A stretch of DNA of 64,000 nt from Bryopsis sp. KO-2023 (Eukaryota > Chlorophyta > Ulvophyceae > Bryopsidales > Bryopsidaceae). The stretch spans positions 4,034,001 through 4,098,000 of the forward strand of contig BSYQ01000007.1 in assembly GCA_030272585.1 (NCBI GenBank). The letters run 5' to 3'. Below, piece after piece: positions 17,510 to 44,444 of the stretch. The notes under the pieces are model-generated. The model was given only the letters and a program-made list of their open reading frames with translations, did not search any database and was not told the DNA's origin. A program made the translations under genes and the position numbers. How positions within the stretch are numbered: position 1 is the stretch's first letter; the number at the start of each line of letters is the position of its first letter.

Positions 17510-17511
17510 AC

Positions 17512-20942: not shown

Positions 20943-22757
20943 TTAACGCTGTTCCGGCGCTTGCGCTTGCTGAATAGCACGCTGCTCCTGCGCATGCGCT
21001 TGCTGCACTGCACGATACCGGACACAGGGATCAAATGCGGCAGCCACCCTCTTGGACTTAAGGAATGGCAGATCCCTTGTGATGCCGGACACCTTGAGCT
21101 GCCGCTTCACACACATGTTGCAGTGTGGCAACTTCTCGTGCTCAGCCGGGAACGGAGGGATTTCTTCGAACGTCGAGCGTGTCAGCTTCAACATATGGGC
21201 AGGTAGAGAGAATGGGGAGATGGTGGCGATGGACTTGTTGTCCACTTCCGCGACTTTTTGGACCGCCGTGACGATGCGCCCCAGCATCGAGTATGCCAAC
21301 CAGTGAGCATCACACACGAGGTGATACCCACAAGGAAGGACGGAATACTTCTTCTGCGTCAGCCGCTGAGCACTTGCTTGCATTGGGCTTCTCCCGCACC
21401 AAATGCACATGGGCAACTCGTGAAAGTGCCGGTTGCCGCGGTAATTTTGCAAGGCTCGGTCCCTGGGGTTAGTATATTGGACCTTCGGCCATTTCTCCGA
21501 CGCAGTGATGGGGTTGCAAGCCTCCTCGATATCCTCCCGTGACAGGTTCACTTCGCTGGGTGCAGCATCCACTTTGTCCTGAGCAGCCGCCCTTAATCTC
21601 CTGAGCTTAACCTTTTCTCGGAAAGCCCGAAGTGCTGCTTCTGTTGGAGCTAACTCCAACGGTGGATGGACCGCACGCTGAACCTCTGTCACCTGGCTTG
21701 GCCCTTCATCATTCCTTATTTCCCCGTCCTCCAGTTCAGAACTAGGACCTTCGAGCCTAGGAGGTGGACTGCCGAAGTCAATTTCTTCGTTAAAATCCAA
21801 GTCCAAAAGCTCCTCCTCTCTCATGTCGAATAAGTCCTCCCCCGGTGCTATTGCGGTAGCCTCATCTCCGGGAGTCTGAACTGTTGGCGCTGGTTGTGAG
21901 GGTGCTGGAGTCTTTAATGCGGCAGCCTTTAACTTGAGTAACAAGTTGGCTCTTGCTGCATCTCCAGGCATACGATCCCTCGGTGGCTCACCACCTTCAT
22001 CGTCACCGTCCTCTCGCCTTCTCTTTCCGTGTGGATCTTCATCCCTACACGGCGAGCTTGGGCGTTTGTTTTTCCCTTTCCCCTTGCCCTTGCTTGAGCC
22101 TCCCGCATCATCGTCCTTGGACGGTTCCAGATCAAGTGTTGCGTTTGACAACAGAACTTGGACTTGGCGATCCAGTTCTTCGCGTACCCGTGGTGCTGGT
22201 ACCGCCGGGTTCAAACGCAGCATCTTGTCCGTTGTTTCGCTCTGCACTTGAAGTTTTTCAGAGCCGTCTCTGAGGGACTCTCCCAGCAAATCGATCTGCA
22301 GCTCTTGTTCTGCCAATTCCTTCTTAAGGTTATTGGCTGCTGCACTCCACGCGGTTGCTACAGCTCGCTGCAGCGTTTCCTCTACCGCGGTAAATCGATC
22401 CACTATTCCCCCGAGAGCTTGTTTACGGAGGTCATTCTCACGATGGTTAGCCATCATGTGAGATTGGAACCTTTGCTTTTTCAGCTTCATGGCTTCCAAT
22501 TTTTCTTCCAAGACCTTGGTCTTGTCCTCCGCTTCTTTCTTTTCCGCCTCCGCCTTATCCCTGGCTTTCTCCGCTGCCTCCTTCGCAGCCTCAGCTGCTT
22601 TCGTCCGGTCACTCAACTCTGCGAGCTGCCGGGTTAAGGCCTCATTGTTCTGCAGCACCTCCTCTGCGGTCGTAACAAAGTGCTGCAGCTCCTCTTCTTT
22701 TTGAGCTACCTCCGCTTCCAACCTCGCAATAATTGCGGCGGGTGTATCGGCAGCCAT
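20943..22757 (-). CDS. Element E ORF3: coiled-coil protein with RING-like Cys/His array
   Basis: The frame is open to 22817, but I prefer the ATG at 22757 (MAADTPAAIIARLEAEV), which has a purine at -3 and G at +4 and follows a TATA-like box by 121 nt; about 604 residues. N-terminal half: Ala/Glu/Lys coiled coil (EAAKEAAEKARDKAEAEKK...). Middle: acidic, with a basic patch (GKGKGKNKRPSS). C-terminal array at 21111-21407: C-x2-C-x21-C-x2-H-x2-C-x2-H-x60-C-x2-C. It ends in Gln/Ala repeats. It has no signal peptide or membrane helix, so it is not env-like. Counterparts lie after pol in D and B. Function unknown; the array resembles a RING finger with His at ligand 6, which would suggest zinc binding and perhaps protein interaction. 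Confidence 0.85.
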   Translation of the reverse strand: MAADTPAAIIARLEAEVAQKEEELQHFVTTAEEVLQNNEALTRQLAELSDRTKAAEAAKEAAEKARDKAEAEKKEAEDKTKVLEEKLEAMKLKKQRFQSHMMANHRENDLRKQALGGIVDRFTAVEETLQRAVATAWSAAANNLKKELAEQELQIDLLGESLRDGSEKLQVQSETTDKMLRLNPAVPAPRVREELDRQVQVLLSNATLDLEPSKDDDAGGSSKGKGKGKNKRPSSPCRDEDPHGKRRREDGDDEGGEPPRDRMPGDAARANLLLKLKAAALKTPAPSQPAPTVQTPGDEATAIAPGEDLFDMREEELLDLDFNEEIDFGSPPPRLEGPSSELEDGEIRNDEGPSQVTEVQRAVHPPLELAPTEAALRAFREKVKLRRLRAAAQDKVDAAPSEVNLSREDIEEACNPITASEKWPKVQYTNPRDRALQNYRGNRHFHELPMCIWCGRSPMQASAQRLTQKKYSVLPCGYHLVCDAHWLAYSMLGRIVTAVQKVAEVDNKSIATISPFSLPAHMLKLTRSTFEEIPPFPAEHEKLPHCNMCVKRQLKVSGITRDLPFLKSKRVAAAFDPCVRYRAVQQAHAQEQRAIQQAQAPEQR

Positions 22758-23207
22758 TATGTTCGTCGGAAAGAAAGAAATAACAACGGTTTGTGCGTCT
22801 TTAGACTTTTTTTTCACTCAGGAGCTCGCTCCGTTTACACAAACACTAGGGCAAAATGGTTCGAGGGCTGCGCTTATAAGGCTGGGTGACTCGTACACTT
22901 TCCTCGTTGGGTTATTGGGGTGAGACACCAACGTTTCGCTCGGTTGGAGTCTCGTCAAGACCACCTCAACACGTCACTTGATAGGGGTTTTCTCGGAACA
23001 ACCACACTATCTCGAATGTGACATCGTTTGCCCGGTTTCTAAAGTACTACTGAAGCTACACTTACTGCGCCAGCCAAATAACTTAGGCACCTAACGCATT
23101 AAAGTTAAAGAGTTGGTTTGGAAGTCGACAGAGTTTTTCTAAGGTATCCTTTTTCGCGCCCCCTTGCTATAAGGAGTTCCACCTTAGCCATCAAACACTC
23201 TGTTTCC
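22758..23207 (-). other. Element E spacer between pol and ORF3
   Basis: Mostly noncoding 450 bp. It contains the TATA-like TATAAG at 22873-22878 and nothing else I recognise. Confidence 0.5.
22873..22878 (-). promoter_or_regulatory. TATA-like box before E ORF3
   Basis: Minus-strand TATAAG, 121 nt before the preferred ORF3 ATG; the D and B counterparts have one at 119 and 112 nt. Confidence 0.45.
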
Positions 23208-23745
23208 CTATTCTCTTCCTTTCTGCAACTCTTTTCTTTCTTTCTCTTTAAATGCGCGAAGTATATCTGGTGCGTTAACCAGATTAGCTTCAGGTTCCCA
23301 AGTAGCGTCAAGTAGATCGTATCCTTTCCACAGCACTAGGTATTCGCGATTGCGTTTACCTCTAGCCCTTAGGATATTTTCGACCTCATACTCTACTTCG
23401 CTACCAATCAACTCTCCTTCTGGAGGTTGTATTTGCCTGCTGTTATCACTCGAGGCGTGATAACGCTTGAACTTAGAAACATGAAACACTGGGTGAATGA
23501 GCCATGTTTCCGGAAGTTGAACTCTGTAAGCCACCTTTGATATTTTCTCCACAATTTCAAAGGGACCCACAAATCGACGGCGCAGTTTGGGACTCACTTT
23601 GTTCAAAGCAGCCAACGGAATAAAACGGCTTTTTATCAGGACTTTATCCCCTTTCTCAAAAGCAATATCTTTCCTCTTCTTGTTTGCACTCACACACATT
23701 CTGTGTTGTGCTCTAGAGTAATATGCTTTTGCGGTATCTAAGTCC
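23208..23745 (-). CDS. Element E pol, C-terminal part with chromodomain
   Basis: Continues the E pol frame interrupted by D at 33991. It holds the post-integrase GPY-type region (RRRFVGPFEIVEKISKVAYRVQLP, HPVFHVSKFK) and a chromodomain (YEVENILRARGKRNREYLVLWKGYDLLDATWEPEANL). It stops at 23208. The join is in phase when one agtcc is counted. Confidence 0.92.
23741..23745. repeat. Target-site duplication of element D, left copy
   Basis: agtcc, repeated at 33991-33995. Confidence 0.93.
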
Positions 23746-23919
23746 TGTTAGGTCCCTGTAGGTTTTAGTGAGTCGTTGCTGAAGTTGAGACTGGGGTCAC
23801 ACACTTTCACAAACCAGAGAATTAATTTTACAAGTGTTCTCTCTGAACTTAACCCCCTAGAACCCGTACTAACCCGTACTACACACTCGTACTGCAAAAT
23901 GAGTGCGATCAACGTATCA
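23746..23919 (-). mobile_element. Element D 3' LTR (174 bp)
   Basis: TGTTAGG...CGTATCA in plus orientation. Followed inward by a run of about 16 C (23926-23941), which is the polypurine tract on the minus strand, and by an (aaaag)n tract. Confidence 0.94.
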
Positions 23920-24071
23920 ACTACTCCCCCCCCCCCCCCCCCAAAGGGTGTCCACACCCGTAGAAGAACCCAAAAAGAAAGAAAAAGAAAAGAAAAGAAA
24001 AGAAAAGAAAACCCCCAAGGAAAAACTGTCTCTGTCCGGCTCTGACTCTCTGGCTCTGGCTCTGCTCTCGC

Positions 24072-25940
24072 TCACTCTGTCTCCGAGTCCAAGCCCTCGA
24101 GATCCCACATCGTTCGTAGGATGTATGTCAGCCGGGATCCAAGCTCCTTGACACCGGTTTTCGAAGGGAAGGCTGCGGATTTGACCCGACACACCTGACA
24201 TGGTAAGGTGAGCTGATCAGTGGCATCCGGGGGTGGAAGCGATGGGAGCGGAAGAAAATCCTCCGCACGTTTCCCGAGGCGAAGATGCTCCGCGGTCATA
24301 TCGAGCGGCCGGATACTTTTATCCGCGAGCCACCGATTGATGACCCGATCCATTACATGATGATGGGGCCAGTGTGTGGGACAAACGTAGTGAGCCCCAC
24401 AACTGGTTTTTATCCCGACACCATGTTGCGTTCCCGCGCAGTAGTAGCACTTCGTTCCCGCGAGTGCTGGATCGTGCGTGCCTTTGATCTTCTTGAGCGC
24501 TGCACGCAACTCTTTCGCGTCCTTTGCGCGTGTGCGTTTCTTCCCCCGCTTGGTGCTTTTCTCCGCGCCCTTTTTGTCCGCTTCCTTCACTTTTTCCGCA
24601 TCCGCCTGAGTCGACGGCTCCCCTTTCTTGGTTTCAGCGGTTGTCTTTTTCTCCGCGTCCGCCTTCTTTTGTTTTTCCGCGTCCGCATGTGTTTTCTCCG
24701 CGTCCGCCTTTTGTTTTTCCGCAGCCGCCTTTTTCTCCGCATGTGTTTTCTCCGCGTCCGCCTGTTGTTTTTCCGCGGCCGCCTTTTTCTCCGCGGCTGC
24801 TTTCTTTTTCTCCGCAAGTGCTTTGAGCATTGCTGCTTTGACGAGTGCTTTTGTTTGTGCGTCCTCCGCGCTCAGCGGTGGTTTTGAACCTGTCGGTTCT
24901 TCCGCTATGACGTCTTCGTTGTCGTCATCGTCAAGGGAACTCTGGGGTGGTTTCGCCAACTGCTGTGAGATATTTTCCGCTGCCCCGTCTATCCGGCTCA
25001 ACCAGTCGTTCACTTGGTCCAAATTGTGCGCCTTCGTAAGGTCTACGTTTGTGATGGTTATCTCTTTGACCTTATGCATATCGACCTGATCTTTTATCCG
25101 GCCATCCCTCACCAACTGCGCCTGTGTTTTTGCGGTGTCCAGACGTACTCCCACGAGTCCGTGTGAGAAACTCGCGAGTGACTGCGGAATGTCCATGAGG
25201 CTGGCCCGAAGCCGGCTGACCTCAACCTTGGACGCCACCAACTCGGACATTAACACGCGGGCAGTCGTGCTGCTGCAGAAATTGTCTCCTTTTTCCGCCT
25301 TGGCGAGAGCGGCTTTCGTGGCTGCCAACTCTTTTTGGACCGTGGCGAGGTGCTTGTAGCGTTTCTCCGCCTCGCTGATGAGCTGCTTGTTTTCCTTGTG
25401 GTACCAATCTGTATCCGCTTGAGCTTTGGTGGCTGCTTTCCGGGAGAGGGTCAGATCGGTGGTCAGCTGGGTGATTTCCTTTGCTTTTGCGGAAATTTCT
25501 TGATCCCGCGCGGAAATTATTTGATCCTTTGCGGAATTTTCTTCCTCTTGCGCGGATAACTCTCTTTTGATGGTCTTGAGTTCCGCTTCCGCACCGCGGG
25601 CTTTCACTTGAGCATCACTCAACTGCTGTTGAAGAGCCCGGTATCGATCCTTCCAATCCGCCTCCAGCTTAATTTTCTCCGCCGTCTGTTTCTCCTCTGT
25701 TTCCCGGAGTTTCGCCGCCAGCTCACAGATTTCCGCCTCCTGCTCATCCCTTTTTGTCACACCCTCCTGAAGCTTCGTGTGTAATTTTTCGTAATCCGCC
25801 GCCACATTTGCATGTAATTCCACTGCCTCAGTTCCAGATTCTAAGGCTTCCGCGAGCTCCGTTTCCAAGGCCTCTGCCTTTGTTTTCCACTCATCCCTCT
25901 GCTGACGGAGTCGCTCCAAATGCTCGGATGTTCCAGACAT
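24072..25940 (-). CDS. Element D ORF3: coiled-coil protein with RING-like Cys/His array
   Basis: 622 residues starting 322 nt after the pol stop. Residues 1-~200 form a long coiled coil. Residues ~375-470 are repetitive Ala/Glu/Lys with units like KADAEKTHADAEK. Basic patch (TKRGKKRTRAKDAKE). C-terminal array at about 24189-24449 (residues 498-584): C-x2-C-x12-C-x2-H-x2-C-x2-H-x57-C-x2-C. No signal peptide or membrane helix. The copy in D2 (52105-53973) has the same length and keeps all eight Cys/His. The eight-ligand pattern is shared with E and B ORF3. Intact frames in two copies argue for selection. Function unknown; a RING-like zinc module on a coiled coil is the best description. Confidence 0.88.
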   Translation of the reverse strand: MSGTSEHLERLRQQRDEWKTKAEALETELAEALESGTEAVELHANVAADYEKLHTKLQEGVTKRDEQEAEICELAAKLRETEEKQTAEKIKLEADWKDRYRALQQQLSDAQVKARGAEAELKTIKRELSAQEEENSAKDQIISARDQEISAKAKEITQLTTDLTLSRKAATKAQADTDWYHKENKQLISEAEKRYKHLATVQKELAATKAALAKAEKGDNFCSSTTARVLMSELVASKVEVSRLRASLMDIPQSLASFSHGLVGVRLDTAKTQAQLVRDGRIKDQVDMHKVKEITITNVDLTKAHNLDQVNDWLSRIDGAAENISQQLAKPPQSSLDDDDNEDVIAEEPTGSKPPLSAEDAQTKALVKAAMLKALAEKKKAAAEKKAAAEKQQADAEKTHAEKKAAAEKQKADAEKTHADAEKQKKADAEKKTTAETKKGEPSTQADAEKVKEADKKGAEKSTKRGKKRTRAKDAKELRAALKKIKGTHDPALAGTKCYYCAGTQHGVGIKTSCGAHYVCPTHWPHHHVMDRVINRWLADKSIRPLDMTAEHLRLGKRAEDFLPLPSLPPPDATDQLTLPCQVCRVKSAAFPSKTGVKELGSRLTYILRTMWDLEGLDSETE

Positions 25941-26262
25941 TTTTAGGCAAATGCTTTTTAATGTTTTGCTTTGGTGGCGGTTGCTTCTGAAGGTTCAGTG
26001 CGCTTGGCGTAAACTTTTGACGAAATAGGGCTGGAGGGTTGCAGCCTAGCTAGTTTATACAAGTGATAGAGTCACTCACTTGTCACTGATGGAAGACTTC
26101 CTCTATTGAGTGTCGTCTCATCCAAGGTTCTAGCCCGCTTTGATATTACCCTCGCTATCTTGACTCAGCTCTCTGTAGCTCGCTCTTAGATGTATTTGAT
26201 TATGGGTGAACTGATACCAACACATCAACCATCGTTCCCTTCCCCATATCAACCTGTATCAT
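25941..26262 (-). other. Element D spacer between pol and ORF3
   Basis: 322 bp, noncoding. Contains a clear TATA box (GTATAAAC on the minus strand at 26053-26060). Confidence 0.55.
26054..26059 (-). promoter_or_regulatory. TATA box before D ORF3
   Basis: Minus-strand TATAAA, 119 nt before the ORF3 ATG at 25940. The position fits transcription of ORF3 from its own start about 30 nt downstream. Confidence 0.5.
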
Positions 26263-29200
26263 CTAAAGAGGTTGTTTCCGCCGCCTTGTCCGCCTTTCTT
26301 CCCGCTTAGAGCGGATTTCCTCTTTGGTCGGCAAGCGCGTGCGGTTTCTGAGATACTCTGCCAAGATATCGCTGGCATTGGCCAGGTGGGCTTCTGGCTC
26401 CCAGGTGGCTTCCATCAAATCATAGCCCTTCCATAGAATCAAGTACTCCCGACGGTTGGGTGTGCCTCGATCCCGCAGAATACGCTCGACCTCATATTCA
26501 ATGGCGCCATCCACCAACTCCCCTTCGGGAGGTTCCACCTCCCGCTCATCATCTTTTGACAAGCGGTTGTATGCCTTCAGCTTGGAGACATGGAAGGTAG
26601 AATGAATAGTCCAATGGGGTGGTAGTTGCAGGCGATAAGCGACTGTGGATATCGCTTTGTCCACTTTGAATGGCCCGACAAACCTCCGGCGGATTTTTGG
26701 TGGGATCTTTTGCAAGGATTGCAGCGGAATAAATGTACTCCGCACCAAAACTTCATCCCCTTCTTTGAAGATTACTTCCCGCCGCCGTTTGTTCGCTTGG
26801 ACACACATCCGCTCTTGTGCGGTTGCATACTGCTGCTTTGCCTGCTGCAGTTGCTCGTCCATTCGTTTCACCATTTCGGTTGCCATTTCGGACTCTTCTT
26901 TCGCCGTTAACTTTTTCTGCACGGTAATTTGTCCCATATGCTGCCCATACAACAAGTGTGCTGGGGCATAGCCGGTTGACACATTGCGGGAGTTGTTGGC
27001 AGCAAATTCCGCTGTCGCCAAGAAATCAACCCAGCGGTCTGGATACCGCTCCACATAAGGCCGCAAAAAGTCTTCCAACACCCGAATAGTAACCTCTGAC
27101 TGCCCATCTGTTTGTGGGTGGTAGGCTGTGCTCATTCGGAGTTGGGTTCCCAGAAGTGAAAATAAAGACCGCCAGAAGGAACTTGTGAATCTGGGGTCTC
27201 GATCGGAAATTATCACTTTGGGGAGGCCATAGTGTTTGTATATTTTGTCCACAAACAACTTAGCATATTCCGGGGCGGTTATTTCCTTAGTGCAGGGTGC
27301 GAAGCGAACGTACTTGGTTAACCGATCAACAAATACCGCGATGGCGGTGAACCCACGTGACTTTGGTAAATCAGTCACGAGGTCAGTGGTGATCTGTTCC
27401 CACTTTGTTGTCGGTATTGGGAGTGGATGCAGAAGCCCTTTCTGCTTCGTCGTATCAGCTTTTGTCCGCTGACAGACAGGGCATGTCCGCACGTATGCTT
27501 GGACATCCTTTCCAACTCCTTTCCACCAGTAGTATCGCTGTAGCACATCCGATGTCCGGGCGGCACCTGCGTGTCCAGCGCTCGGAACATCATGGAACTC
27601 CCCCATAACCTTTTTCCGGTATCCATTTGGAACCACTAGTACTTTGTCTGAGGTGGGAGTTGCTTGATAGTACAACCAGCCATCCTCGAACGAAAGTTTC
27701 GTGGGTTTACCCGCTTGAATTTTCGTGACTTCCGCCTGCAGTTTTTGATCTGCTGCAATAGCGGTCTTCCATGCATCCGCTTCATCCACCACCCAGGCGG
27801 ACAAAGCATGAATTTGATCCTGTGAATCAGGAAGGCTTCGGGATAACGCATCCGCCAGTACGTTGGCTTTACCAGGCACATAGACGATTTTTGGATCGAT
27901 GGAATCAAAATACCCTGACGTATACCATCGGGATTGTGTCCGCGACATTTTAGCTTGGGTCATGAAGTGGGTTATCGGCTGATGGTCTGTCATAACCGTA
28001 ACCTCCCCAGGCGCTCCTTCGAGGTAATGCCGCCATTGGCTGAGCGCATATGCTACAGCCCCCAGCTCCCGCTCATATGCGGAATATCGTGTCTCAGCTG
28101 GTTTTAATCGTCTTGAAAGGTAGGCTATTGGCTGTAGCCCCTTTCCATGGTCCTGACACAGAACTGCTCCATATGCAGTTCCTGATGCGTCCGTTATTAC
28201 GGTGTACCTAAGAAGCGGATCGGGTAGGAGAAGTATGGGGGTGCGGGTGATCTTTTGCTTGAGTTTGCTGAAGGCTTCGCGCTGAATAGGCCCCCATGTC
28301 CACACATGATTCTTTTTGATCAGATCATGTAAGGGTCCTGCAATCCGCGCAAACTCTGGTATAAACTTACGATAGTAAGATACCATGCCCAGAAAACTTC
28401 GCACATCCCCAACTGAGCTCAACTCCTTCCATTCTTGAATAGCCCGCACTTTATCACTCATTGGTTGCAGGCCTTTCCCTGACAAATGATATCCCAGATA
28501 ATCGGTCTCGCTGACCCCCACTTCACACTTGCTCGCTTTCGCGTAGAGCTTGTGTTTGTGTAACCGCTCGAATACCTGTTTCAAATGATCGACATGTTCT
28601 TCCACTGAATTGGAAAACACCAGAATGTCGTCAATGAACACAACCACAAAGTGGTCCAAAAACTCCCCCAACAAATCCTGCACCATAGTTTGAAACTGGG
28701 CCGGACAGTTGGACATTCCGAAGGGACAAACGAGGAACTCGAAATGCCCGTATCGTGTGCGGAATGCAGTTTTTGGGGTATCCTTTGGCCGGACTGGAAA
28801 TTGCCAGTAGCCCGAGCGGAGGTCGATCTTGGTGTAGATCTTCGCTTTAGCGAGCCGGTCCATTAACTCTTCGGGGAGCGGAAGTGGATAGCGGTTTTTT
28901 ATCGTGTAGTGGTTGATCCATCTGTAATCAACACACATCCGCAGTCCGCCGTCTTTCTTAGGGACAAAGAGTATGGGGGCTCCCCAGGGACTCTCTGACG
29001 GCCTAATCTTCCGTTGCTCGAGGAGATAATCCACTTGTGTCCGAACTTCATCCAATTCAGCCGGAGAAAGTTTGTACAGGGGACGGTGGATTGGGCTCAT
29101 ACTCTCATCCTCAAGGTCGATCTTAAATTCATGACCCTTGCGGACTGGAGGTATGCCAGGTGGGAGATCTTTTGGAAAAATGTGGCTATATTCCTCCACC

Positions 29201-33814: not shown

Positions 33815-33816
33815 GT

Positions 33817-33990: not shown

Positions 33991-36900
33991 AGTCCTGTGC
34001 CATCCGTGCTACCATTGTCTTAACTGCTTCCACTTGAAATTGCGTTGCCGTCCCACCAATGTTTGGTGTTTCTGGATGGTACCCATACATCAAATATGCA
34101 GGTGCGAACCCTGTACTCGCATTCACTGCATTGTTTGCTGCAAACTCTGCTGTAGGTAAATACTCAACCCACTTATGGGGATACCTCTCAGCATATGGCC
34201 TTAAGAAATTTTCCAGAGTACGTATGGTAACCTCACTCTGCCCATCCGTCTGAGGGTGGTAAGCTGTACTCATACGAATCTCTGTACCCAGAGCTTTAAA
34301 AAGCGTCTGCCAGAACTTGCTGGTAAAGCGAGGGTCTCTATCAGACACAATCACTTTAGGTAGGCCATGGTTGCGGTAAACATGTTCGATAAAAAGTTGG
34401 GCGTATCCTGCAGCGGTAATCTCTTTAGTACATGGGGCGAAATGCACAAACTTGGTAAGTCTATCGACAAAGACAGCTACAGCACTAAACCCATTGGATG
34501 CTGGTAGATCTGTCACCAAGTCAGTGGTAATCTGCTCCCACTTCCGCTCAGGTATTGGCAGGGGTTGAAGTAAGCCCATAGGCTTCTGTGTGTCAGCCTT
34601 TATTTGTTGGCACACAGGGCATTCGCGCACAAATGCCTTCAACTCATTCATCCACCCCTTCCACCAATATCGCCGCGCGAGGATTTCTCCTGTTCGCGCT
34701 GGTCCTGTATGGCCTGCTGAAGGTGTCTCATGGCACTCCTTCATGATCTTATTGCGCTGGCCTTTAGGAACCACCACTTTCTCGACTAATCCTCTCTTTG
34801 GGACCGTCCAGAGTATTCCCTCTCTGAGGAAATATCCCTCAACTTCCTCGCCACTCTCAAGCTTCCGCAATATCTTCACCAAGGAGTTATCAGCTTGGAG
34901 GGCTTGTTTCCACTCGTCTTGGCTTGCTTGATGCACGTGCCAAGTGGAAATGTTCATCGCAGTTTCCACGGGCTTAGGAACACTGCGGGAGAGAGCATCT
35001 GCTAACACATTAGCCTTGCCTTTGATATAGGAGATCTTGGGGTTGATCGAAGTCAGGTACCCCGCCTCAAGCCATCTTGCTTGGGTTCTAGAAAGGTTCC
35101 TCTGCGACAGAATATGCGTCAGAGGTTGGTGGTCAGTGAACACTGTTACTCCACCCGCACAACCTTCTAGATAATGTCTCCACTGCACCATCGCATAACA
35201 TATTGCACACAACTCTTTGTCGTATGGTGCATAGTTAAGCTCGGCAGGCTTGAATCTACGTGAGAGGTAAGCTATTGGCTGTAGCCCCTCTCCGTGATCC
35301 TGTGTTAACACGGCACCGATGGCCTCATTCGACGCATCAGTGATCACAGTGTAAGGCAGTGACGCATCTGGAAAAATAAGGACGGGAGCTTGACTTAAAC
35401 GCTTTTTCAGTTCATTGAATGCGCCACGCTCAACCTGTCCCCATCTCCAGGGATGGTCTTTTTTCACTAAGTCATGGAGTGGTCCAGCAACATGTGCAAA
35501 CTGGGGAATGAATTTCCTGTAGTATGAAACCATTCCAAGGAAACTACGTACATCACTAACACTCTGTAGTTCCTTCCACTCCTTCACTGCCTTCACTTTT
35601 TGTTCCTGTGGTTTTAACCCACTTCCGCTAATGCGGTAGCCAAGATAGTCTACTGTTGCGACAGCCAGCTCACTTTTACTTGCCTTAGCAAAAAGCTGAT
35701 ATTCTGCTAGTCGCGACAGGACTTTCTCTAAGTGTTCGGCATGCTGTTCCATGTTTTCAGAGAAGATGAGTATGTCATCGATAAAGACAACAACAAAATC
35801 ATCTAAAAACTCTGTGAGTAGGTCTTGCACTAGAGTTTGGAATTGCGCTGGGCAATTGGTTAGCCCAAAAGGCGCTACCAAAAACTCAAAGTGACCGTAT
35901 CTCGTGCGGAACGCTGTTTTATCTGTATCAGATGGCCTTACTGGAAATTGCCAGTAGCCTGATCGCAGATCTAACTTTGAGAACACTTTGGCTTTGAACA
36001 CTCTATCCATCAATTCTTCTGGCAGGGGTAAAGGATACCGGTTTTTCACCGTCACCTTATTGATCCACCTGTAATCCACACACATCCTTAAGCCTCCATC
36101 CTTTTTCGGTACAAACAGGATTGGCGCGCCCCAAGGGGACTCGGATGGTTTGATTTTCTTCTGTTCCAGAAGGTAGTCCACTTGTGCTTTCACTTCATCC
36201 AGCTCTGCTGGTGAAAGCTTGTATATTGGACGATGGATAGGTGTTGGATCCTCCAGGTCTATCTTAAATTCATGACCTTTTCTCTTCGGAGGGATCCCTG
36301 GGGGTAAATCACGAGGGAACACACCACGGTGTGTTTCTACCACCTTTTTAATTTCAGCAGGGGTGTCTGAACGAATAAGTTTACCAATCTCATCCTCAGT
36401 GTTGAATGGCTGTGTTCGCTCTATTGCGTCAGGCAATTCATGTTGGCCTAAAGCTTTCTCTTCAGACTCTTGCACTACAACCATGAATGCTGTCTCTGTT
36501 TTGAGATGACGCATCATTCGTTTAGCTGAACACTCAGTCACTGGCACTTCTTGCAGTATCGACTGTACTTTTCGTTCAGGTTCAATACTCTCTTGGGTTG
36601 GATGACGCAACGGGAGATGAAACACTTGGCTGTTTTTGCAAACTGAAATCTCATTCTGCTGAAAGTCTATGCGGGGGTTTTCTTTCTGCAACCAAGGCAT
36701 GCCCAATATTAGGTCATAACCAAGGTCTGGGAACAGATCCGCTTTCATTTTGCACTTCAGCCCTCCTATCTTTACTCGGAGGTTGTTACAGCTGCCAGCC
36801 AGTTCTTTAATATCTCCGTTTGCCAACATTGCTCTCTTGGAGCTTGGTGTAATCGACAACCCGAGATCACGCGCTACCTTATCATTGATATAATTTGCGG

Positions 36901-37466
36901 TACTTCCACAATCAATGAATGCATAAAGGTCCGTGGTCTTGATCCGTGCTTTTACTTCGTACCCTCTCACAGGCACTTCTTGAATTTTTAACAGAGGGCA
37001 TGTGTCACCCTTGGTTGACGAAGTTGATCGAACTTCTGACACATTAACTCGCTCTGTGGTAGACCGCTGGGTTGTTTCTGACCCACTATCGTCTACGTCT
37101 GCAGGCAGGGACTCCTGTAGACTACTCTGCGACTCCAATGAGCCCACAGATTCACTAACAGAGGGAAGAGATGCAGATGACGCATGAGGCGCGTCCATCT
37201 CATCCGGTGTGCTTTCCTTCTGTTCATTTTTCCAATCGCAGTTGTCATGTGCCGATTGGGTAGATGTGGAGAGTGTCTCTGTTCTCTCTTCACGCGGTGT
37301 ACTAGTCCGCTCCTCAGGTTTTCCGCTGTGAGTACTTTTAACCTTTTTCGAGGCACCTACTTTTGATCTATGCTTCCTACGCCGCCTACGAACTCTGTTT
37401 CGCTTACGACGTTTGCGTCGGCCAGGCTCAGACGAAGCAGTTTCCTGCCTGGCGGTCAGTTTAACA
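33991..37466 (-). CDS. Element E pol, main part: protease, RT, RNase H, integrase
   Basis: The first ATG in frame is 37198 (1072 codons up to the D insertion), but the frame is open back to the end of gag and is in -1 relative to it, after a run of eight A at 37467-37474. The extra N-terminal part is very basic (RRKRRKRNRVRRRRRK), like the D pol N terminus, which supports expression by frameshift. Protease: AFIDCGSTANYI (36902-36913 for DCGS). [36 protein letters not shown]. RNase H: VITDASNEAIGAVL, TDHQPL. Integrase finger CPVCQQIK and D,D,E (TTDLVTDLP, IVSDRDPRF, TDGQSEVT). D interrupts at M-A-Q-D-L; the C-terminal part is at 23208-23745. Confidence 0.94.
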
Positions 37467-40107
37467 TTTTTTTTACATCGGGGAGGTTTTTCACCTCCTC
37501 CAATCTAGGACATTGCCTCACAGGATGACCCTTCTTTCCACAAAGATAACAATTATATCCCCCTCCCCCCTGGGGGTTCTGTCTTCCCTGATTGGCTTGT
37601 CCTCTTCCACGGTTACCACCACCGCGTCCACGTCCACCACCACCACGTCCTCCTCCTCGTCCTTGTTGCTGTTGCTGCTGCTGTTGCACTCCTGCGGCAG
37701 CTTGTGGTGGTGCTTGGGCTGGTGGTGTAGGGTTCTGCTGCTGCTGACCCTGATTCTGGCCTTTCTTCTTTCTTCCACCACGCCAGACTCCTTTCTTTTT
37801 CTGATTGGTCTGCCCTCCTTGGCCTTGTGTTCCAACTCCAAGGGCTTCCAATCGTTCGGCGGATATGATGGCAGCCTCGACATCTCGAGGTACCGTTGCA
37901 GCGACTAACTTCTGAACTTCACTCTTAAGTCCATCCACGAAGAGCAAATACTGGTGATCCTCTTCGAGGTCTGGAATCCTCAAGACTAACCGCTGAAACT
38001 CTTTAACGAACTGTTTCACGGTTCCAGTCTGCTTGAGTTTGTGGAGGTCACGCCACGCTTCATCTCGATCACTAGAGAATTCGAAAGCTGTAGCTAAGCC
38101 ATCCATGAAGTCCATCCAGTCACGGAAGGGTGGTCTTTCACCTCGGTGAATTTTCAACTCTTGCATCGTTAACCAATCCGAGGCAGCCCCATAAAGGTTA
38201 GTGGCCATAATCGATTGCCACTGTGCTTCATGCACTCCGCAGGTTCTCAAGTACCGCGTCATGAGCACTTGCCATTTACGGGCTTTTGGTTCTCCACTTC
38301 CGTTAAATGCGCGAGGCATTTGCAACTTGACGGTGCTAGGCAACCACTGTCCTTGCCTAGGAGGTCCTGGCCCTGCTGGTCCAGCGCCACCTCCACCTCC
38401 ACCTCCACCAGGAGGTCCACCGGGAGGTCCACCGCCTCCACCATCTCCACCGCCGCCACCACCTCCTCCGCCATCAGGCGCACCTGGAATGCGGGAAGGT
38501 GGGCGGTTTCGTCTGTCGCGGTAATCATCACCGCCATCATCATCTGGGTCGTCATCACCAGGGTCTCCAAAGTTACCTCGCATGCGAGGAACTCGACTGG
38601 GTCCACCAGTAGACTCATATGAACCAAGTGCAGCAAAGGGATTATTTTCTACCCTTGCTCCCAAAGCACTTAACCCAAGTCCCAATCTTCCAGTACGTGT
38701 GGGGATCTGCATGGGTTCTTTTCCTTTCTCTTCTCTGACCTGTGCCTTAGCACGCTCAAGGTCAATTTGATATAACACTTCTGCTGAGGAGAGAACTCTT
38801 GGGTTAGTTCGTGTGGGTCTACGTGATCCATCGGCAGAGTCGGGTTCTGAGATGCGTACTCCAGGCTGAGCTCTTGTACTTGGAGGTATCAACTGAGGGA
38901 ATGTGAAATCAACGTCTGGTGCGCTGTCCACTGCAGTGCATGGTGGTGCTTCTGCAGCAACAATTTCACCCTCCTCGACCTGTACTGCTGGAGGAGCCGG
39001 TATTGTTGAGGTTCCTGCCCCAACCATTCCTACCGCGAAGCTCTGGTCTAGTGGCGGCCATGATGCAGCCAACTGCTTTACTGATTTCTTCGGCAGCGGC
39101 ATCCCAAAGGCTGAGTCCTCAGGCTCAGGAGAAGTTGATTCTTCTCGCTCTGGTGATACTGCTCGAGCATCACTTCCACTTTGGGCACTCTGACTTCCGC
39201 CACTCACATCCTCCATGCTTCGTTCCAGGCCAGATAATCTTAAGGCAACCACATCAGCTGCATCTTGCTGCTGATCCCAGGTTTTGGATGCCTTTTTCTC
39301 CAAGGCAATCAAATCTTTTTGAATTGCTACTCTGGAGCTCTGCAAACGCTTCACCTCAGCACCTTGCTTATGCAAGGACTCCCGAAACAATTCTAGAGTC
39401 CGTTCGACTTTTTCGTTGGAATCCGCAACAGTTCCTAATAAGCCTTCAATTCTCCGCCCTTGAACAAGGGATAACTCGGAGAGTTGTTTTAACTGAAGTG
39501 CTGATGCTTCAGTTGCTTCTTTTAGGTCAGCAAAACGAGAGTCCGCTAGAATGTCTGCGGCATCCATCCTCCTCGTTATTGCGTCCACAGAAGCTTTGAT
39601 CTCGGCTCTTTCTTTTCTATGGTCGATATCTTGGCGTAATAGCCTCTGCTCGTATCGACTATGTTGAGCCGCTACTGAATCCAGCTTCTCCTGTTGCGAC
39701 ACCACCGCATGCTGTGTGGCCTCAACCTGTCGCGCATGCTGGTGCTGTGTTTCCAGCGCCTGCCCGATCACCTCTGATGCGCCAGCCAGTTGGTTCGACA
39801 CAGAGGCCTCAGTATGGGCTAGCCTCTGCCCCAGTGTCTGGTCAACTTGCTGCAGGTGACCCCTTAGCCCGTGGGCTAAATCGTCCACACGGTCATGGAC
39901 CGCATCCACATCCTCTCTTAAGGCTTCCGCATCAGCTCCCATGTCTATGTCGACAGCTGCTTGCTGGACATTGTGGATGTTCTGGACGTTTATTTGTTGA
40001 TACACAACATTGGGTGCGTCAGGCAATTCCTCATCGAACTCAGGTTCAATCCCTGGCTCTTCAACTTGAGGCTCGCGCACTGCCAATGCGTGTTCACGGT
40101 CAGCCAT
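37456..40107 (-). CDS. Element E Gag
   Basis: 883 residues. Acidic N terminus with VQNIHNVQQ, a coiled coil with heptad stretches (residues ~70-330), a Pro/Gly-rich linker (GGPPGGPPGGGG, ~38380-38480), the capsid (MPRAFNGSGEPKARKWQ..., TNLYGAASDWLTM, LHKLKQTGTVKQFVKEFQRLV; ~37880-38320), a Gln- and RGG-rich block and one knuckle CYLCGKKGHPVRQC (~37512-37553). Same order as D Gag but diverged in sequence. The stop (TGA, 37456) is bypassed to make pol by the frameshift noted above. Confidence 0.93.
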   Translation of the reverse strand: MADREHALAVREPQVEEPGIEPEFDEELPDAPNVVYQQINVQNIHNVQQAAVDIDMGADAEALREDVDAVHDRVDDLAHGLRGHLQQVDQTLGQRLAHTEASVSNQLAGASEVIGQALETQHQHARQVEATQHAVVSQQEKLDSVAAQHSRYEQRLLRQDIDHRKERAEIKASVDAITRRMDAADILADSRFADLKEATEASALQLKQLSELSLVQGRRIEGLLGTVADSNEKVERTLELFRESLHKQGAEVKRLQSSRVAIQKDLIALEKKASKTWDQQQDAADVVALRLSGLERSMEDVSGGSQSAQSGSDARAVSPEREESTSPEPEDSAFGMPLPKKSVKQLAASWPPLDQSFAVGMVGAGTSTIPAPPAVQVEEGEIVAAEAPPCTAVDSAPDVDFTFPQLIPPSTRAQPGVRISEPDSADGSRRPTRTNPRVLSSAEVLYQIDLERAKAQVREEKGKEPMQIPTRTGRLGLGLSALGARVENNPFAALGSYESTGGPSRVPRMRGNFGDPGDDDPDDDGGDDYRDRRNRPPSRIPGAPDGGGGGGGGGDGGGGGPPGGPPGGGGGGGGAGPAGPGPPRQGQWLPSTVKLQMPRAFNGSGEPKARKWQVLMTRYLRTCGVHEAQWQSIMATNLYGAASDWLTMQELKIHRGERPPFRDWMDFMDGLATAFEFSSDRDEAWRDLHKLKQTGTVKQFVKEFQRLVLRIPDLEEDHQYLLFVDGLKSEVQKLVAATVPRDVEAAIISAERLEALGVGTQGQGGQTNQKKKGVWRGGRKKKGQNQGQQQQNPTPPAQAPPQAAAGVQQQQQQQQGRGGGRGGGGRGRGGGNRGRGQANQGRQNPQGGGGYNCYLCGKKGHPVRQCPRLEEVKNLPDVKKMLN
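37467..37474 (-). promoter_or_regulatory. Probable -1 frameshift site, E gag to pol
   Basis: In the gag frame the minus strand reads GTA AAA AAA ATG TTA AAC TGA, which contains a canonical X-XXY-YYZ heptamer (A AAA AAA) four codons before the gag stop. The pol frame is exactly -1 and open from this point. Confidence 0.65.
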
Positions 40108-40238
40108 GGTCTCTCAGCCACTATTTGGGAGTACTCAACAACCACGGTTGGAGTTTCTCTCTACCAAACAAACAAACAAAAACGTTTGTTGCGCCACGTT
40201 CACAAGTTTCGATCTCAAGAACTTAAAGTTCTTGCCTT

Positions 40239-40250
40239 GCTCCGAAACCA
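40239..40250 (-). promoter_or_regulatory. Element E primer-binding site
   Basis: Minus-strand TGGTTTCGGAGC two bases inside the 5' LTR; the leader to gag is only 131 nt. Confidence 0.85.
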
Positions 40251-40252
40251 AT

Positions 40253-40673
40253 TGATAGTGAAGCTTGTGGGTGACGCAATAGTGGTCGGCTGTGTTGGTT
40301 GGATTCGTGATAACTTGCTGGCTAACGCAAGTATACTTGTGGGGTTTGTTGCTTTAGACAACTCTCTAGCTAGCGCGGTTGTGAACGCTACTAGAGCACT
40401 TGGTTGGATAAGTGATTGCGTCAGGCAAACACTTAGACACACACACACACAAACACACACACAAGCGGGAACACACCAATCCCACGAATCCCGAGTTCTT
40501 ACAAAGTAAAGAAGATGTCAAAACAACGAGTGGGCCTCTTAAGTACCCCTAAGTGTAGTACGCTGACGCATGCCCCAAACTCTGGGTCTAATCTGTCTTA
40601 CTCGTGAACCCACATGCGTCAGCCACCCTCGGCTCTATCCCAAACTACCTCGTATAGCGCTAAAAGACTAACA
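40253..40673 (-). mobile_element. Element E 5' LTR (421 bp)
   Basis: Pairs with 20327-20747; followed by ccgag at 40674-40678 and then the rest of B pol. Confidence 0.94.
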
Positions 40674-40678
40674 CCGAG

Positions 40679-42907
40679 CATCAGCTCTACGCGAAGGCGT
40701 CAAAGTGTTCCGTCGCCGTCAAAGAACTGGATTTCGTGGGGCATTGGATTTCGGCCGACGGCATCTCCCCTCATCGCAGCAAGACCCAAGCCATTCAAGA
40801 TTGGAAGCCCCTACAGTCTGTGCCGGAAGTGCGGAGTTTTCTGGGCATGGTGTCCTACTACCGACGCTTCATCAGGGAGTTTTCAAGGATTGCTGCTCCC
40901 ATCCAGAAGCTCGTCAAGAAGGACCAAGCCTGGGAATGGGGTCCGGCCCAGACAGCAGCGTTTCAAGAGCTCAAGGACCGACTCACTTCGGCCCCAGTAC
41001 TCTTGATCCCGGACCCGGCCAAACCGTATGTTGTTGCCACGGATGCATCGGACTTCGCATTAGGCGCTACCTTAATGCAGGGCAGCAAGGAGGAAGGTTA
41101 TCAGCCCATTGCATTTTTGAGCCGTTCCCTGAACTCCGCCGAGCAGAAGTATTCGGCCTACGAAAGGGAACTATTGGGCATCTCCTATGCTCTCGCCCAA
41201 TGGCGTCACTACCTGGAAGGAGCTCCTGGTGGAACTACGGTGTATACGGATCACCTCCCAGCTACCCATTTTCTACAGCAACGCGTCCTTTCACGGACTC
41301 AAACGCGTTGGTTGAAGTCTGGATCGTTCCAGTCTATCAAGCCGAAGATTTTATATCTTCCGGGCCGAGCCAATTTTGTGGCCGATGCGCTTTCTCGCAA
41401 GCCACAACTCCGGCTCAATGCGATTTTGGGGGCCAAAATCTCGCCCGGGGAGGCACAAGACTGGCAAGCCGCCATAAAGGAGGACCCTATTCTTCGACCA
41501 ATCGTGACCCAACTTGAAGAGGGACGAGCAGTGCAGGGGTACACCCTGACCCCAGATGGACTGCTCATGTATCAAGCCAAGGACGTTGGAGCCGAGCCGA
41601 AACTCGTTGTGCCGGTTTCTAAACGCCAGGTGGTATTGCACGACCACCACGATGTGCCGATGGCGGGACATCCAGGGAAAGCTCGGACAGCCGAGCTTGT
41701 GAGCCGAAGACATTGGTGGAGAGGCTGGCGCCGAGCCGTGAACCACTATGTCGAATCGTGCCCCACTTGCCAAATGATGAAGACCGAGAATTCTAAGCAG
41801 AAAGGGTTGCTACACCCTCTGCCAGTTCCGGCCTACAAGTGGGAGCAGCTGACGACCGACCTCGTTACTGACTTACCGAAGTCTAACGGGTACACGGCCG
41901 TGGCTGTCTTTGTGGATCGGCTCACGAAGATGTGCAAGTTCGTCCCGTGCACCAAGGAGGTTTCGGCGAAAGGATATGCCGAGCTCTTTCTCTCCAAAGT
42001 ATTCCCCACCTCAGGGATACCGGAAGTTATCGTGTCTGATCGAGACCCAAGATTTACGAGCCAGTTCTACAAGGAGTTGTTTCGGCTCGTGGGCACCGAT
42101 CTAAGGATGTCGACCGCTCACCATCCGCAATCTGATGGACAGAGCGAAGTTACAATCCGAACACTGGAGAACTTCCTTCGGCCCTACATTGAAGCAAGGC
42201 CGGAGACATGGAGCGAATACCTCAGCACGGCCGAATTTGCTGCAAACAATTCGGTCAACGCCAGCACCAAATACACCCCTTTCTACCTGATGTATGGGCA
42301 ACACCCAAGAGGCCTGGAGGCCGACCGGCCGAGTACCAACGTGGAGGCGGCCGAGGCCATGGTGAGCCGAATGAACCGAGACCTGGAGGAGGCCAAAGCA
42401 AACTACGCTTCGGCCCAGGAGATCATGTGTGAGAGCGCCAACAAAAAGAGGCGACATGTGGAATTCGCAGTGGGACAGGAGGTTTGCCTCCGAAGTGCCC
42501 ACCTCCCTCTGGCCGTAACCAAGCACATTCCGGCCAAGGTCAGGCGACGGTTCATCGGGCCGTTCAAGGTTGAGGCCGTAATATCACCAGTGGCCTATAG
42601 GCTCGACCTCCCACCAGGCTGGAGGCTTCACCCTACATTCCACGTCTCCAAGCTCAAGGAATACAAGCGGTCCGAGGAGTTCGTGCGGGATGCACCTCCC
42701 GGCCCGGCTCTTATCGATGAGCTGGATGGAGAAGAGGAATACGAAGTGGAGGCTATTGTCAGGGAGAAAGGAAAGGGAAGAGGAAAACGTTATTTGGTTT
42801 GCTGGAAAGGATACCAACCCCATGAGGCAACATGGGAGCCGAAGGAGAGTCTGACACATTGTTCAGATCTGCTGGCCGAGTTCGTTGCACGAACGGGCCG
42901 AGCATGA
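40679..42907 (+). CDS. Element B pol, second part: RT end, RNase H, integrase, chromodomain
   Basis: Resumes in phase after E. RT thumb (HQLYAKASKC, DFVGHWISADG), RNase H (VVATDASDFALGATL, YTDHLPATHF, NFVADALSR), integrase finger (H...H...CPTCQMMK), D,D,E (TTDLVTDLPKSNG, IVSDRDPRF, SDGQSEVT), RRRFIGPFKV region, and a C-terminal chromodomain (YEVEAIVREKG...RYLVCWKGYQPHEATWEPKESL, ~42735-42880). Stop at 42907. No break apart from E. Closest here to D and E pol by motif wording. Confidence 0.93.
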   Translation, partial: HQLYAKASKCSVAVKELDFVGHWISADGISPHRSKTQAIQDWKPLQSVPEVRSFLGMVSYYRRFIREFSRIAAPIQKLVKKDQAWEWGPAQTAAFQELKDRLTSAPVLLIPDPAKPYVVATDASDFALGATLMQGSKEEGYQPIAFLSRSLNSAEQKYSAYERELLGISYALAQWRHYLEGAPGGTTVYTDHLPATHFLQQRVLSRTQTRWLKSGSFQSIKPKILYLPGRANFVADALSRKPQLRLNAILGAKISPGEAQDWQAAIKEDPILRPIVTQLEEGRAVQGYTLTPDGLLMYQAKDVGAEPKLVVPVSKRQVVLHDHHDVPMAGHPGKARTAELVSRRHWWRGWRRAVNHYVESCPTCQMMKTENSKQKGLLHPLPVPAYKWEQLTTDLVTDLPKSNGYTAVAVFVDRLTKMCKFVPCTKEVSAKGYAELFLSKVFPTSGIPEVIVSDRDPRFTSQFYKELFRLVGTDLRMSTAHHPQSDGQSEVTIRTLENFLRPYIEARPETWSEYLSTAEFAANNSVNASTKYTPFYLMYGQHPRGLEADRPSTNVEAAEAMVSRMNRDLEEAKANYASAQEIMCESANKKRRHVEFAVGQEVCLRSAHLPLAVTKHIPAKVRRRFIGPFKVEAVISPVAYRLDLPPGWRLHPTFHVSKLKEYKRSEEFVRDAPPGPALIDELDGEEEYEVEAIVREKGKGRGKRYLVCWKGYQPHEATWEPKESLTHCSDLLAEFVARTGRA

Positions 42908-42910
42908 CTG

Positions 42911-43226
42911 GAGGAAGCTTCTGATGCAACTGACGAGGGTGATGGGGGAGTTGGAAGTCATGATGACGAACTGATGAGGTCAACCTCGGCCGGAATGGGA
43001 CGGTACCTCAAACGAGGCGGTACCTCGGAAGTTCGGAGGGAATTCCCATCCCTCGTCACATCAGAGTGTACCTTTCAGTTGCGCAATGTGTCTGACCGGT
43101 ACCTCATCGGCGAATTTAAAGAGAAGTAACGAAGGCGCTCCAGAAAGCCTTTGTTGATTGAGTGAGAGAGAGAAAAGAGAGAGCCCACACGGCCGAAAAT
43201 AAGAAAGAAAAGGAAAAGGGGAAGCC
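42911..43226 (+). other. Element B spacer between pol and ORF3
   Basis: 316 bp noncoding; contains TTTAAA at 43115-43120, 112 nt before the ORF3 ATG. Confidence 0.45.
43115..43120 (+). promoter_or_regulatory. TATA-like box before B ORF3
   Basis: TTTAAAG at 112 nt before ATG 43227; weaker than the D and E boxes but at the same distance. Confidence 0.35.
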
Positions 43227-44444
43227 ATGGACTTCACAGCGGCCGGACTGGAAAAATTCTTGCAGGACACGCGCCAAGCGGCTGAACAGAACCGCAAGTT
43301 ACAGGCCGAACTTGCCGAATGGCAAAATAAGGCCAACGATGCGGAGAAGCGGGCAAAGGCTGCGGAGGAGAAAGTCGCTGAGTTGGAGGACCAACTGAAA
43401 ACACAGCGTTTGGAGGCGTTTCGTCAGGCAGCACTATGGGGACAGGAAAAAGAGCGACTGGCGAAAGCAGCCATGACCGAGGCCATCGACACCCTGAACC
43501 GAGGACTGCAGCGTATGGAAATGGACCAACCTCCAGCCCAGGAAAAAGGAAAAGAGCGCGTGGAAACCGAGACGGTGGAGGACTCGGTACAAGAAGAACC
43601 CGTAACGGAAAGGCCACCGGAAGGACCATCGTCAACCCCACTGAAGGTGGTGATCCCAAGACGAAAAAGATCAAGGAAGCTCAAGGGCCGAGGGGTAGGG
43701 AGGTTCATACTGGACGAGGCGATGGAGGTGGACCAGGCGGAGGCCGAGGGGGAAGACGAGCAGCAGTTGTGGGACTACACGGAGGATCCCTACGCCGACT
43801 TGGAGGACGCTCTTCCCCCAAGGCCGAAGCCTGGTCCAGTGTTGCTCTCGGGGAGTGAGGATGACCCGATATCCGAGGAACCCCCGAAGGCATCGTCCCT
43901 ACCTCCACCACCACCTCCAGCACCTGCTCCGTCCACGTTCGCCTGCGCCGCTTGCGCATATCCGCGGGAAGCTCCCCGCCCTGGTTTGGATCGGGTGCTC
44001 TGCGAAAAAGGGCATCTTTTGTGCAAAAAACACAATGTGGGGTTGAGGATCGCGGCACGAGCAGGAGCACTCATTTCGGCCGACGAATCGGGAGGACCTT
44101 ACCTCCCCCGCATACAGGATCTCATCGGTGAGGGAGACCAAGGCGTCAGGCCGATCCTCCCATTCGACGCCCCACTCCCGGATTGTCCAAGCTGTACCAA
44201 GGAGTCGTTAAAGGGTCGCTGGCCGGGCAAGCTCAAAGAGCAGATCGGCACCTGGAATACTCAGTATTTCCAGGCTCTCGGCTTGGAACTCCCAGGAGCA
44301 GCCAGATCGCACCGCCAGCCGAGCCACCCACCACCATCACCAGACCAACCATCAGCACCTTCCTCGGCGACTCGCCTTCCGCTCCCTCCACACAGCCCAG
44401 CAACGTCCAAGAGGCATGGGCCGAGAACCAGGTCGCAGAAATAG
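43227..44444 (+). CDS. Element B ORF3: coiled-coil protein with RING-like Cys/His array
   Basis: 405 residues, ATG in good context (GCCATGG). Residues ~5-95 are a coiled coil (KANDAEKRAKAAEEKVAELEDQ). Then acidic, a basic patch (PRRKRSRKLKGRG), a Pro-rich stretch, and the array at 43944-44195: C-x2-C-x15-C-x3-H-x2-C-x2-H-x50-C-x2-C (CAAC, C-EKG-H-LL-C-KK-H, CPSC). The tail is Pro/Ser-rich and basic. Third independent member of the ORF3 family, shorter than those in D (622) and E (~604), but with the same order of parts. No signal peptide or membrane segment. Confidence 0.85.
   Translation: MDFTAAGLEKFLQDTRQAAEQNRKLQAELAEWQNKANDAEKRAKAAEEKVAELEDQLKTQRLEAFRQAALWGQEKERLAKAAMTEAIDTLNRGLQRMEMDQPPAQEKGKERVETETVEDSVQEEPVTERPPEGPSSTPLKVVIPRRKRSRKLKGRGVGRFILDEAMEVDQAEAEGEDEQQLWDYTEDPYADLEDALPPRPKPGPVLLSGSEDDPISEEPPKASSLPPPPPPAPAPSTFACAACAYPREAPRPGLDRVLCEKGHLLCKKHNVGLRIAARAGALISADESGGPYLPRIQDLIGEGDQGVRPILPFDAPLPDCPSCTKESLKGRWPGKLKEQIGTWNTQYFQALGLELPGAARSHRQPSHPPPSPDQPSAPSSATRLPLPPHSPATSKRHGPRTRSQK

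Follow-up and report, generated by a model that had tools for sequence, protein, structure and literature searches.

The window analysed here, a stretch of 64,000 nucleotides (nt) from the alga Bryopsis sp. KO-2023 (GenBank assembly GCA_030272585.1, contig BSYQ01000007.1, positions 4,034,001 to 4,098,000 of the forward strand), contains three nested Ty3-type long terminal repeat (LTR) retrotransposons, D, E and B, each of which carries a third open reading frame (ORF), ORF3, after pol. ORF3 is a gene under selection. Pairwise comparisons within the genome of the alga show that it behaves as a swappable cassette, a 3' module having apparently been exchanged in some lineages, and one ORF3 lineage adjoins, to judge by domain matches, a KDZ-type DNA-transposase gene in a repeat. 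Third genes behind pol have been recognised for a long time and, to our knowledge, their function was never settled; the exchange of the cassette and the lineage beside the KDZ-type gene are new here. A gene that is selected and swapped hints at a tool directed at the host cell rather than at a part of the jumping machinery. We tentatively favour, with somewhat less than even confidence, the reading that ORF3 is a host-facing transposon accessory protein, a coil joined to a zinc adaptor, which likely acts on chromatin or the silencing machinery and is perhaps anti-silencing.

24072..25940, reverse strand: ORF3 of D, 622 amino acids (aa); coil-like N-terminal region, Lys/Ala/Glu repeats, basic patch, C-terminal zinc array
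24189..24449, reverse strand: zinc array of D, C498 C501 C514 H517 C520 H523 C581 C584
20943..22757, reverse strand: ORF3 of E, 604 aa
21111..21407, reverse strand: zinc array of E, C451 C454 C476 H479 C482 H485 C546 C549
43227..44444, forward strand: ORF3 of B, 405 aa
43944..44195, forward strand: zinc array of B, C240 C243 C259 H263 C266 H269 C320 C323
52105..53973, reverse strand: ORF3 of D2, open, 96% identical to ORF3 of D

A first-pass annotation had proposed a shared third gene after pol in D, E and B, and the three ORFs proved intact at these positions and strands. The eight Cys/His ligands it had described as common to them could be located residue by residue, and the D2 copy is open at 52105-53973, as it had said, although that element is truncated. 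With both LTRs present and an extra ORF between pol and the 3' LTR, D, E and B are carriers of an additional ORF (aORF). The spacer between the pol stop and the ORF3 ATG measures 322 nt in D, 319 nt in B and 450 nt in E. The coil-like call rests on composition: charged stretches free of Pro and Gly extend over 101 (D), 109 (E) and 64 (B) residues, and basic stretches are also present. By eye, no signal peptide or membrane segment was seen in ORF3 of D, E or B. Streptophyte genomes had been named as the place to search for relatives; the host is a green alga, in whose genome 107 matches to the light-harvesting family were counted, and that label is probably wrong.

The genome searched was the window's own (91.09 Mb in 28 contigs), which returned at least 76, 73 and 99 ORF3 matches with D, E and B as queries, respectively. 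The ligand pattern was seen in 19 of 20 further diverse ORF3 loci fetched from it, the exception (L058) being degraded, so that the array is not a chance arrangement. It is kept in 13 distinct lineages whose aligned zinc domains are 18-60% identical to that of B. Linkage to pol is also common. At seven of the eight loci whose upstream side was inspected, the ORF3 ATG follows 281-329 nt behind a pol end that, by eye, holds integrase and chromodomain, and a same-strand ORF3 match lies within 3.5 kb downstream in 68 of 97 pol places (97 of 98 pol matches and 83 of 99 B-ORF3 matches were used, ORF3 fragments being excluded). Unpaired pol places are no proof that ORF3 is absent, since L077 and L080, which are among them, carry it: behind more distant pols, these two of four loci have an ORF3 with eight ligands (pol 80% and 57% identical to B, respectively), and the stretch fetched at L079 stops short of any ORF3.

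Outside this genome there was little to compare. The protein database gave no match to residues 470-622 of D and one to B, the ORF3 fragment P0005, 96% identical and encoded on a 1153-base contig filed under Parasphingorhabdus. P0005 is probably algal DNA in a bacterial bin; Parasphingorhabdus occurs in the culture of Bryopsis sp. KO-2023, according to the accessible part of one report (PMC12509668). Sequence searches of the PDB yielded weak, unconvincing matches only, and collections of genome contigs and viral contigs no confirmed ORF3 relative. No description of such a gene was found in the literature, in which most subscription papers were out of reach.

Selection on ORF3 was estimated within families as the mean pairwise ratio of nonsynonymous to synonymous change (dN/dS). 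The ratio was 0.10 for B (13 copies), 0.18 for D (9) and 0.12 for E (30), and in the zinc region 0.07, 0.15 and 0.03, respectively; the D and E loci were the best-scoring matches and hence biased to intact copies. The D set excludes L001, the window's own D, and L092 (78% identity, frame-shifted) was left out of the count. All eight ligands were invariant in the 52 copies (13 of B, 9 of D and 30 of E). The first-pass annotation had named a ratio near 1 with Cys and His freely lost as an outcome that would refute it; these values do not refute it. That ORF3 is a functionless passenger, open because its copies are young, is hardly credible. Many copies are 98-100% identical, which makes openness by itself weak proof, but dN/dS of 0.10-0.18 and eight ligands kept across lineages as little as 18-60% identical to B do not fit a passenger.

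The evidence for exchange comes from pol ends and ORF3s that, by pairwise comparison, have different histories. Between B and the L039 element pol is 97% identical (synonymous divergence, dS, 0.41) while ORF3 is 49% identical and saturated at silent sites; between D and L055 the values are 91% (dS 0.66) for pol and 41%, again saturated, for ORF3. In the element at C3:2863021 the last 443 pol residues are 100% identical (rounded) to those at 24 other places. Its ORF3 (L045) is only 43-49% identical to L042-L044, the ORF3s at three of those 24 places, which are themselves 96-98% identical to L042, and it is 97% identical to L046, a copy elsewhere. The case for a swap rests on this pol together with the L045 ORF3, not on L041 alone, because L041 is rearranged upstream: in L041 with L075 (C2:8394200-8403700) pol is truncated and, immediately ahead of its integrase portion, runs into sequence of a different kind. 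In the pairs B/L039 and L041/L045, identity in 150-nt windows is 85-100% over pol and much of the spacer, drops to about 45-50% some 120-140 nt ahead of the ORF3 ATG, and in the 3' part and LTR is regained (about 83%).

The same step is seen in diversity within the B family. Mean pairwise difference among 12 anchored copies was 0.004-0.010 over the pol end and early spacer, to the window that starts at -256, and rose to 0.031 at -181, 0.090 at -106 and 0.173 at -31; it was 0.05-0.15 over most of ORF3 and about 0.03 in the tail. The jump sits about 100-180 nt ahead of the ORF3 ATG. A first profile of B had no jump, and a separate estimate of silent diversity at the pol end (0.060) is too high; both were read as end-alignment artefacts; once the profile was re-anchored on a pol motif, with L092 left out, 12 of 13 sequences showed the jump. 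For D (8 copies), diversity stayed at 0-0.017 across pol and the spacer, reached up to 0.067 within ORF3 and was 0-0.002 beyond it, with silent diversity of 0.008 at the pol end versus 0.071 in ORF3. The obvious route for such an exchange would be template switching between co-packaged RNAs.

We also considered whether Gag is as variable as ORF3 and dropped the idea for B/L039: the two gag genes share 95% identity across 593 nt, and the exception is a 1.58-kb deletion in B. The B gag (17490-18665, forward strand) is thus about 1.58 kb shorter than that of the L039 element, despite the identical LTRs of B; the B copy may have moved with help or may have lost part of gag after insertion.

A TATA-like box lies near the upstream edge of the variable module.

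26054..26061, reverse strand: TATA-like octamer matching at 7 of 8 places, at -121 of the D ORF3 ATG
22873..22880, reverse strand: TATA-like octamer matching at 6 of 8 places, at -123 of the E ORF3 ATG
43113..43120, forward strand: TATA-like octamer matching at 6 of 8 places, at -114 of the B ORF3 ATG

The 200 nt ahead of the ORF3 ATG were scanned in 12 lineages. An octamer that agrees with TATAWAWR at 7 or more of 8 places started between -129 and -110 in six of them, compared to a mean of 1.66 and a maximum of 4 in 1000 dinucleotide shuffles. At 6 of 8 places the count was nine lineages versus a shuffle mean of 5.9 (P 0.010). Motif and window were picked by eye once the spacers had been inspected, and the shuffle test maximises over windows, not over motifs. 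An internal promoter of ORF3 at this box is likely, as predicted from the motif, and because the step in B diversity and the two pairwise breaks fall beside it, what moves seems to be the gene together with its promoter. Splicing may be another route to ORF3 expression. In a broader picture, which we hold to be possible though rather doubtful, a pool of such zinc-adaptor units would be passed around among the LTR retrotransposons of a single alga and would have made its way into a DNA transposon; selection would maintain the diversity of old cassettes as young gag-pol backbones sweep. Diverse cassettes would be expected if each counters a host silencing system that learns the common ones.

The lineage represented by L047 differs in its surroundings. 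Its ORF3 is a frame of 556 aa that has the eight ligands, shares 33% identity with B across the domain and is present in six copies. No pol-like ORF was seen in the ORF listings of about 5.6 kb upstream of L047, which were made without a profile scan. All six copies lie in a repeated unit, since the flanking stretches upstream and downstream recur at those six places; the upstream stretch, which repeats internally, also occurs at a seventh place without an L047-type ORF3. Downstream and on the opposite strand, a frame of 448 aa matches the KDZ transposase (PF18758; E 4.1e-4, 20.6 bits versus a cut-off of 26.6) and a chromodomain (E 6e-4), both below the Pfam cut-off. We take the matched part of this frame to resemble KDZ. 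DNA transposons lack Gag, an RNA genome and cDNA, and if one does share ORF3 with retrotransposons, the common function would lie in something that both types of element meet: silencing, chromatin or DNA repair. In fungi, KDZ elements are said often to carry accessory genes, as far as the accessible part of the source goes (PMC12477816). The repeat unit itself (L094:2613-3827, reverse strand; L047; L095:223-1566, reverse strand) holds two coil-plus-zinc genes of different types along with the chromodomain-KDZ gene.

This bears on the proposal that ORF3 serves the retroelement's own cycle by binding Gag or genomic RNA and aiding RNA export, packaging or cDNA handling. The gene adjoins pol, has basic patches and coil-like regions, and occurs in D and E with Gag proteins that have long N-terminal parts; CERV of the C. 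elegans element Cer1, as presented in the accessible text of PMC10309623, offers a precedent. Yet L047 lies by a KDZ-type gene with no pol-like ORF in those 5.6 kb, and ORF3 varies against near-identical pol ends, which would be odd for a protein co-adapted with Gag (gag was compared for B/L039 only). A role tied solely to Gag, RNA or cDNA is thus made less likely, and we regard the own-cycle explanation as unlikely overall. The handling of cDNA or particles, offered as one function in the first-pass annotation, suffers accordingly as a sole role.

Whether the C-terminal array is a RING can be judged against the consensus C-x2-C-x(9-39)-C-x(1-3)-H-x(2-3)-C-x2-C-x(4-48)-C-x2-C. ORF3 has the RING ligand order; in D, E and B, ligand 6 is His and x(50-60) precedes the last pair. 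The RING-like spacing claimed for it thus holds for the order of ligands, but the gap between ligands 6 and 7 exceeds the usual range. No Pfam RING model matched ORF3 above its curated cut-off. The best matches below threshold were Prok-RING_4 (E 0.022), zf-RING_5 (E 0.19) and Sina_RING (E 4.4), the first being found weakly in 3 of 11 members. An AlphaFold2 (AF2) model of the D array (mean predicted local distance difference test score, pLDDT, 68.0; predicted template modelling score, pTM, 0.66) has short strands followed by a helix at 26-44, whereas that of the B array is of low confidence (mean pLDDT 55.5). Membership in the RING family is unproven.

The same observations bear on the proposal that ORF3 is an E3 ubiquitin ligase of the RING type, which would tag a factor used by the host for restriction or silencing. 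The ligand order, the last pair written as CPxC in 10 of 13 lineages, the weak Prok-RING_4 matches, and the strands and helix modelled around the middle ligands of D all lean that way. On the other side, no lineage of 13 has Ile, Leu or Val ahead of the second Cys and two of 13 have Arg directly past the last Cys. We take the former to be the E2-contact position and the latter the linchpin. As these residues are not kept and every Pfam RING model stays below its cut-off, the ORF3 sequences lend no support to classical E3 activity, and we consider an E3 ligase very unlikely. An E3-like or scaffold protein acting on host silencing or on Gag had been suggested in advance: the RING-like ligand array survives, the E3 part is weakened.

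Other proteins of the genome look alike. At L097:2131-3931 (forward strand) a C3HC4 coil-plus-zinc ORF comes after a chromodomain pol; this ORF has 45 full-length copies (97-100% identical) and 21 relatives (35-38%; frames of 320-499 aa) and found no match in the protein database. A C3HC4-type protein also occurs in L096. P0006, on the other strand of the L047 unit, combines a coil-like part with C-x2-C-x20-C-x2-H-x2-C-x4-C-x39-C-x2-C and matches the L096 and L097 families at E 2e-5 to 6e-4. Common descent of these three with ORF3 was not supported (profile comparison probability 1.9%; only the architecture is alike), and the C3HC4 type may have arrived at that architecture independently.

Chromodomains raise a further explanation, in which ORF3 works with integrase or transposase as a partner that targets chromatin and helps to select insertion sites. 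They are present in the pols of D and B and, below cut-off, in the KDZ-like frame beside L047. But in element C, whose pol has a chromodomain, the stretch from pol to the 3' LTR holds no ATG ORF longer than 67 aa, and exchange of ORF3 over constant pol ends sits badly with tight pairing to an integrase; we find this explanation distinctly unlikely.

Among known systems, several invite comparison. The sense aORFs of plant LTR retrotransposons ('env-like'; PMC7264820, in its accessible parts) resemble ORF3 in position, sense orientation and many copies per family; ORF3 differs in its conserved eight-ligand zinc array and in having no membrane segment obvious by eye, and the terms RING and zinc finger are absent from the main text of that review. 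In bdelloids, as far as the available text describes (PMC5408684), ORF3 types of LTR elements, one of them coiled-coil, are shared with Penelope-like Terminons, so that accessory ORFs sit on unlike retroelements there too. That sharing is among retroelements, whereas in the alga one lineage lies by a DNA-transposase gene and swaps occur between near-identical pol backbones. VANC of the Arabidopsis VANDAL transposons (PMC5735166 and PMC13317346, each in part) is likewise a transposon-encoded accessory protein diversified between related elements. The carriers differ. A VANC-type anti-silencing factor, when expressed, brings about loss of DNA methylation at its element; for the algal ORF3 such a role is putative, and by analogy VANC would be the best precedent for a host-facing role. 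RING/TRIM proteins share the C-C-C-H-C-H-C-C order and a coil-like neighbour, but in ORF3 the zinc domain is C-terminal to the coil, the last loop is longer, ligand 6 is His, and no profile matches above cut-off.

The sequences show the gene, its selection, its swapping between element lineages as a self-contained cassette, and the lineage beside the KDZ-type gene. If ORF3 is a host-facing accessory protein, a small promoter about 120 nt ahead of the ATG would drive its expression apart from Gag-Pol, and the protein would multimerise through the coil-like N-terminus. The C-terminal RING-like domain would bind two zincs and serve as an adaptor to some factor of the host, most likely in its chromatin or silencing machinery, with the outcome that the element is expressed or persists. 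Several observations weigh against such a role. The target is read from distribution and precedent, by analogy; relatives of known function were found neither in Pfam nor in the PDB or the protein database; and the structure models of the zinc part are of low to moderate confidence. The C3HC4 proteins, alike in architecture, are not supported as relatives. At L078 (pol 67%) the coil-like part is retained and the zinc part lost, and the L045 ORF3 has a stop codon in its tail, beyond the zinc array. E has no ORF3 island: silent diversity is 0.030 in ORF3 versus 0.032 at the pol end (29 of 30 copies), and its upstream part is more diverse than the ORF3 part. The KDZ and chromodomain matches beside L047 fall short of their cut-offs, and a genome-wide search with the KDZ model gave no match here and none in the 14 controls either.

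The carriers are nested, with D inside E and E inside B, and C splits the 5' LTR of B.

23746..33990, reverse strand: element D; LTRs 23746-23919 and 33817-33990 (identical); target-site duplication (TSD) AGTCC
30348-33314, reverse strand: gag of D
26263-30372, reverse strand: pol of D, with chromodomain
20327..40673, reverse strand: element E; LTRs 20327-20747 and 40253-40673 (420/421); TSD CCGAG
37456-40107, reverse strand: gag of E
33980-37198, resuming at about 23740-23208 past the D insertion, reverse strand: pol of E
9621..45377, forward strand: element B; 5' LTR 9621-9866 plus 17365-17510 (split by C), 3' LTR 44991-45377; TSD ATGTG
17490-18665, forward strand: gag of B, with internal deletion
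18590-20326 and 40674-42907, forward strand: pol of B (split by E), with chromodomain
9867-17364: element C, interrupting the 5' LTR of B
51793..56948, reverse strand: truncated element D2, holding the 3' LTR, ORF3 and the 3' part of pol

The LTR pair of B is identical, and those of D, E and B are overall 99.8-100% identical and flanked by 5-bp TSDs, which marks all three as recent insertions. The chromodomain at the pol end was found by Pfam in D, B and C and by eye in E. Identity in the reverse transcriptase (RT) region is 65-81% among B, D and E, and 47-56% for A and C against the rest; an unrooted tree of the five RT sequences separates B, D and E from the others with a support of 0.95. 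Neither A nor C, the other elements compared in the window, showed a zinc array behind pol. The sequence TGGTTTCGGAGC adjoins the 5' LTR in C, B, D and E (10110-10139, 17511-17540, 33787-33816 and 40223-40252, respectively) and is their probable primer site. Elsewhere in the window, a retroelement at 2-2325 (reverse strand) has, by eye, a gag-like ORF that opens with a signal-like hydrophobic segment, a second hydrophobic stretch ahead of CCHC knuckles, and then a protease plus dUTPase-like ORF; degenerate tandem repeats lie at 62306-62913, within the AT-rich right end.

ORF3 is selected, abundant and modular, and the DNA-transposase neighbour of one lineage weakens particle-based explanations. 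A host-facing role thereby becomes directly testable, and the swapping provides a natural experiment in which the same backbone carries different cassettes. If the role is true, ORF3 would count as the equivalent, in an alga, of the accessory genes of viruses.

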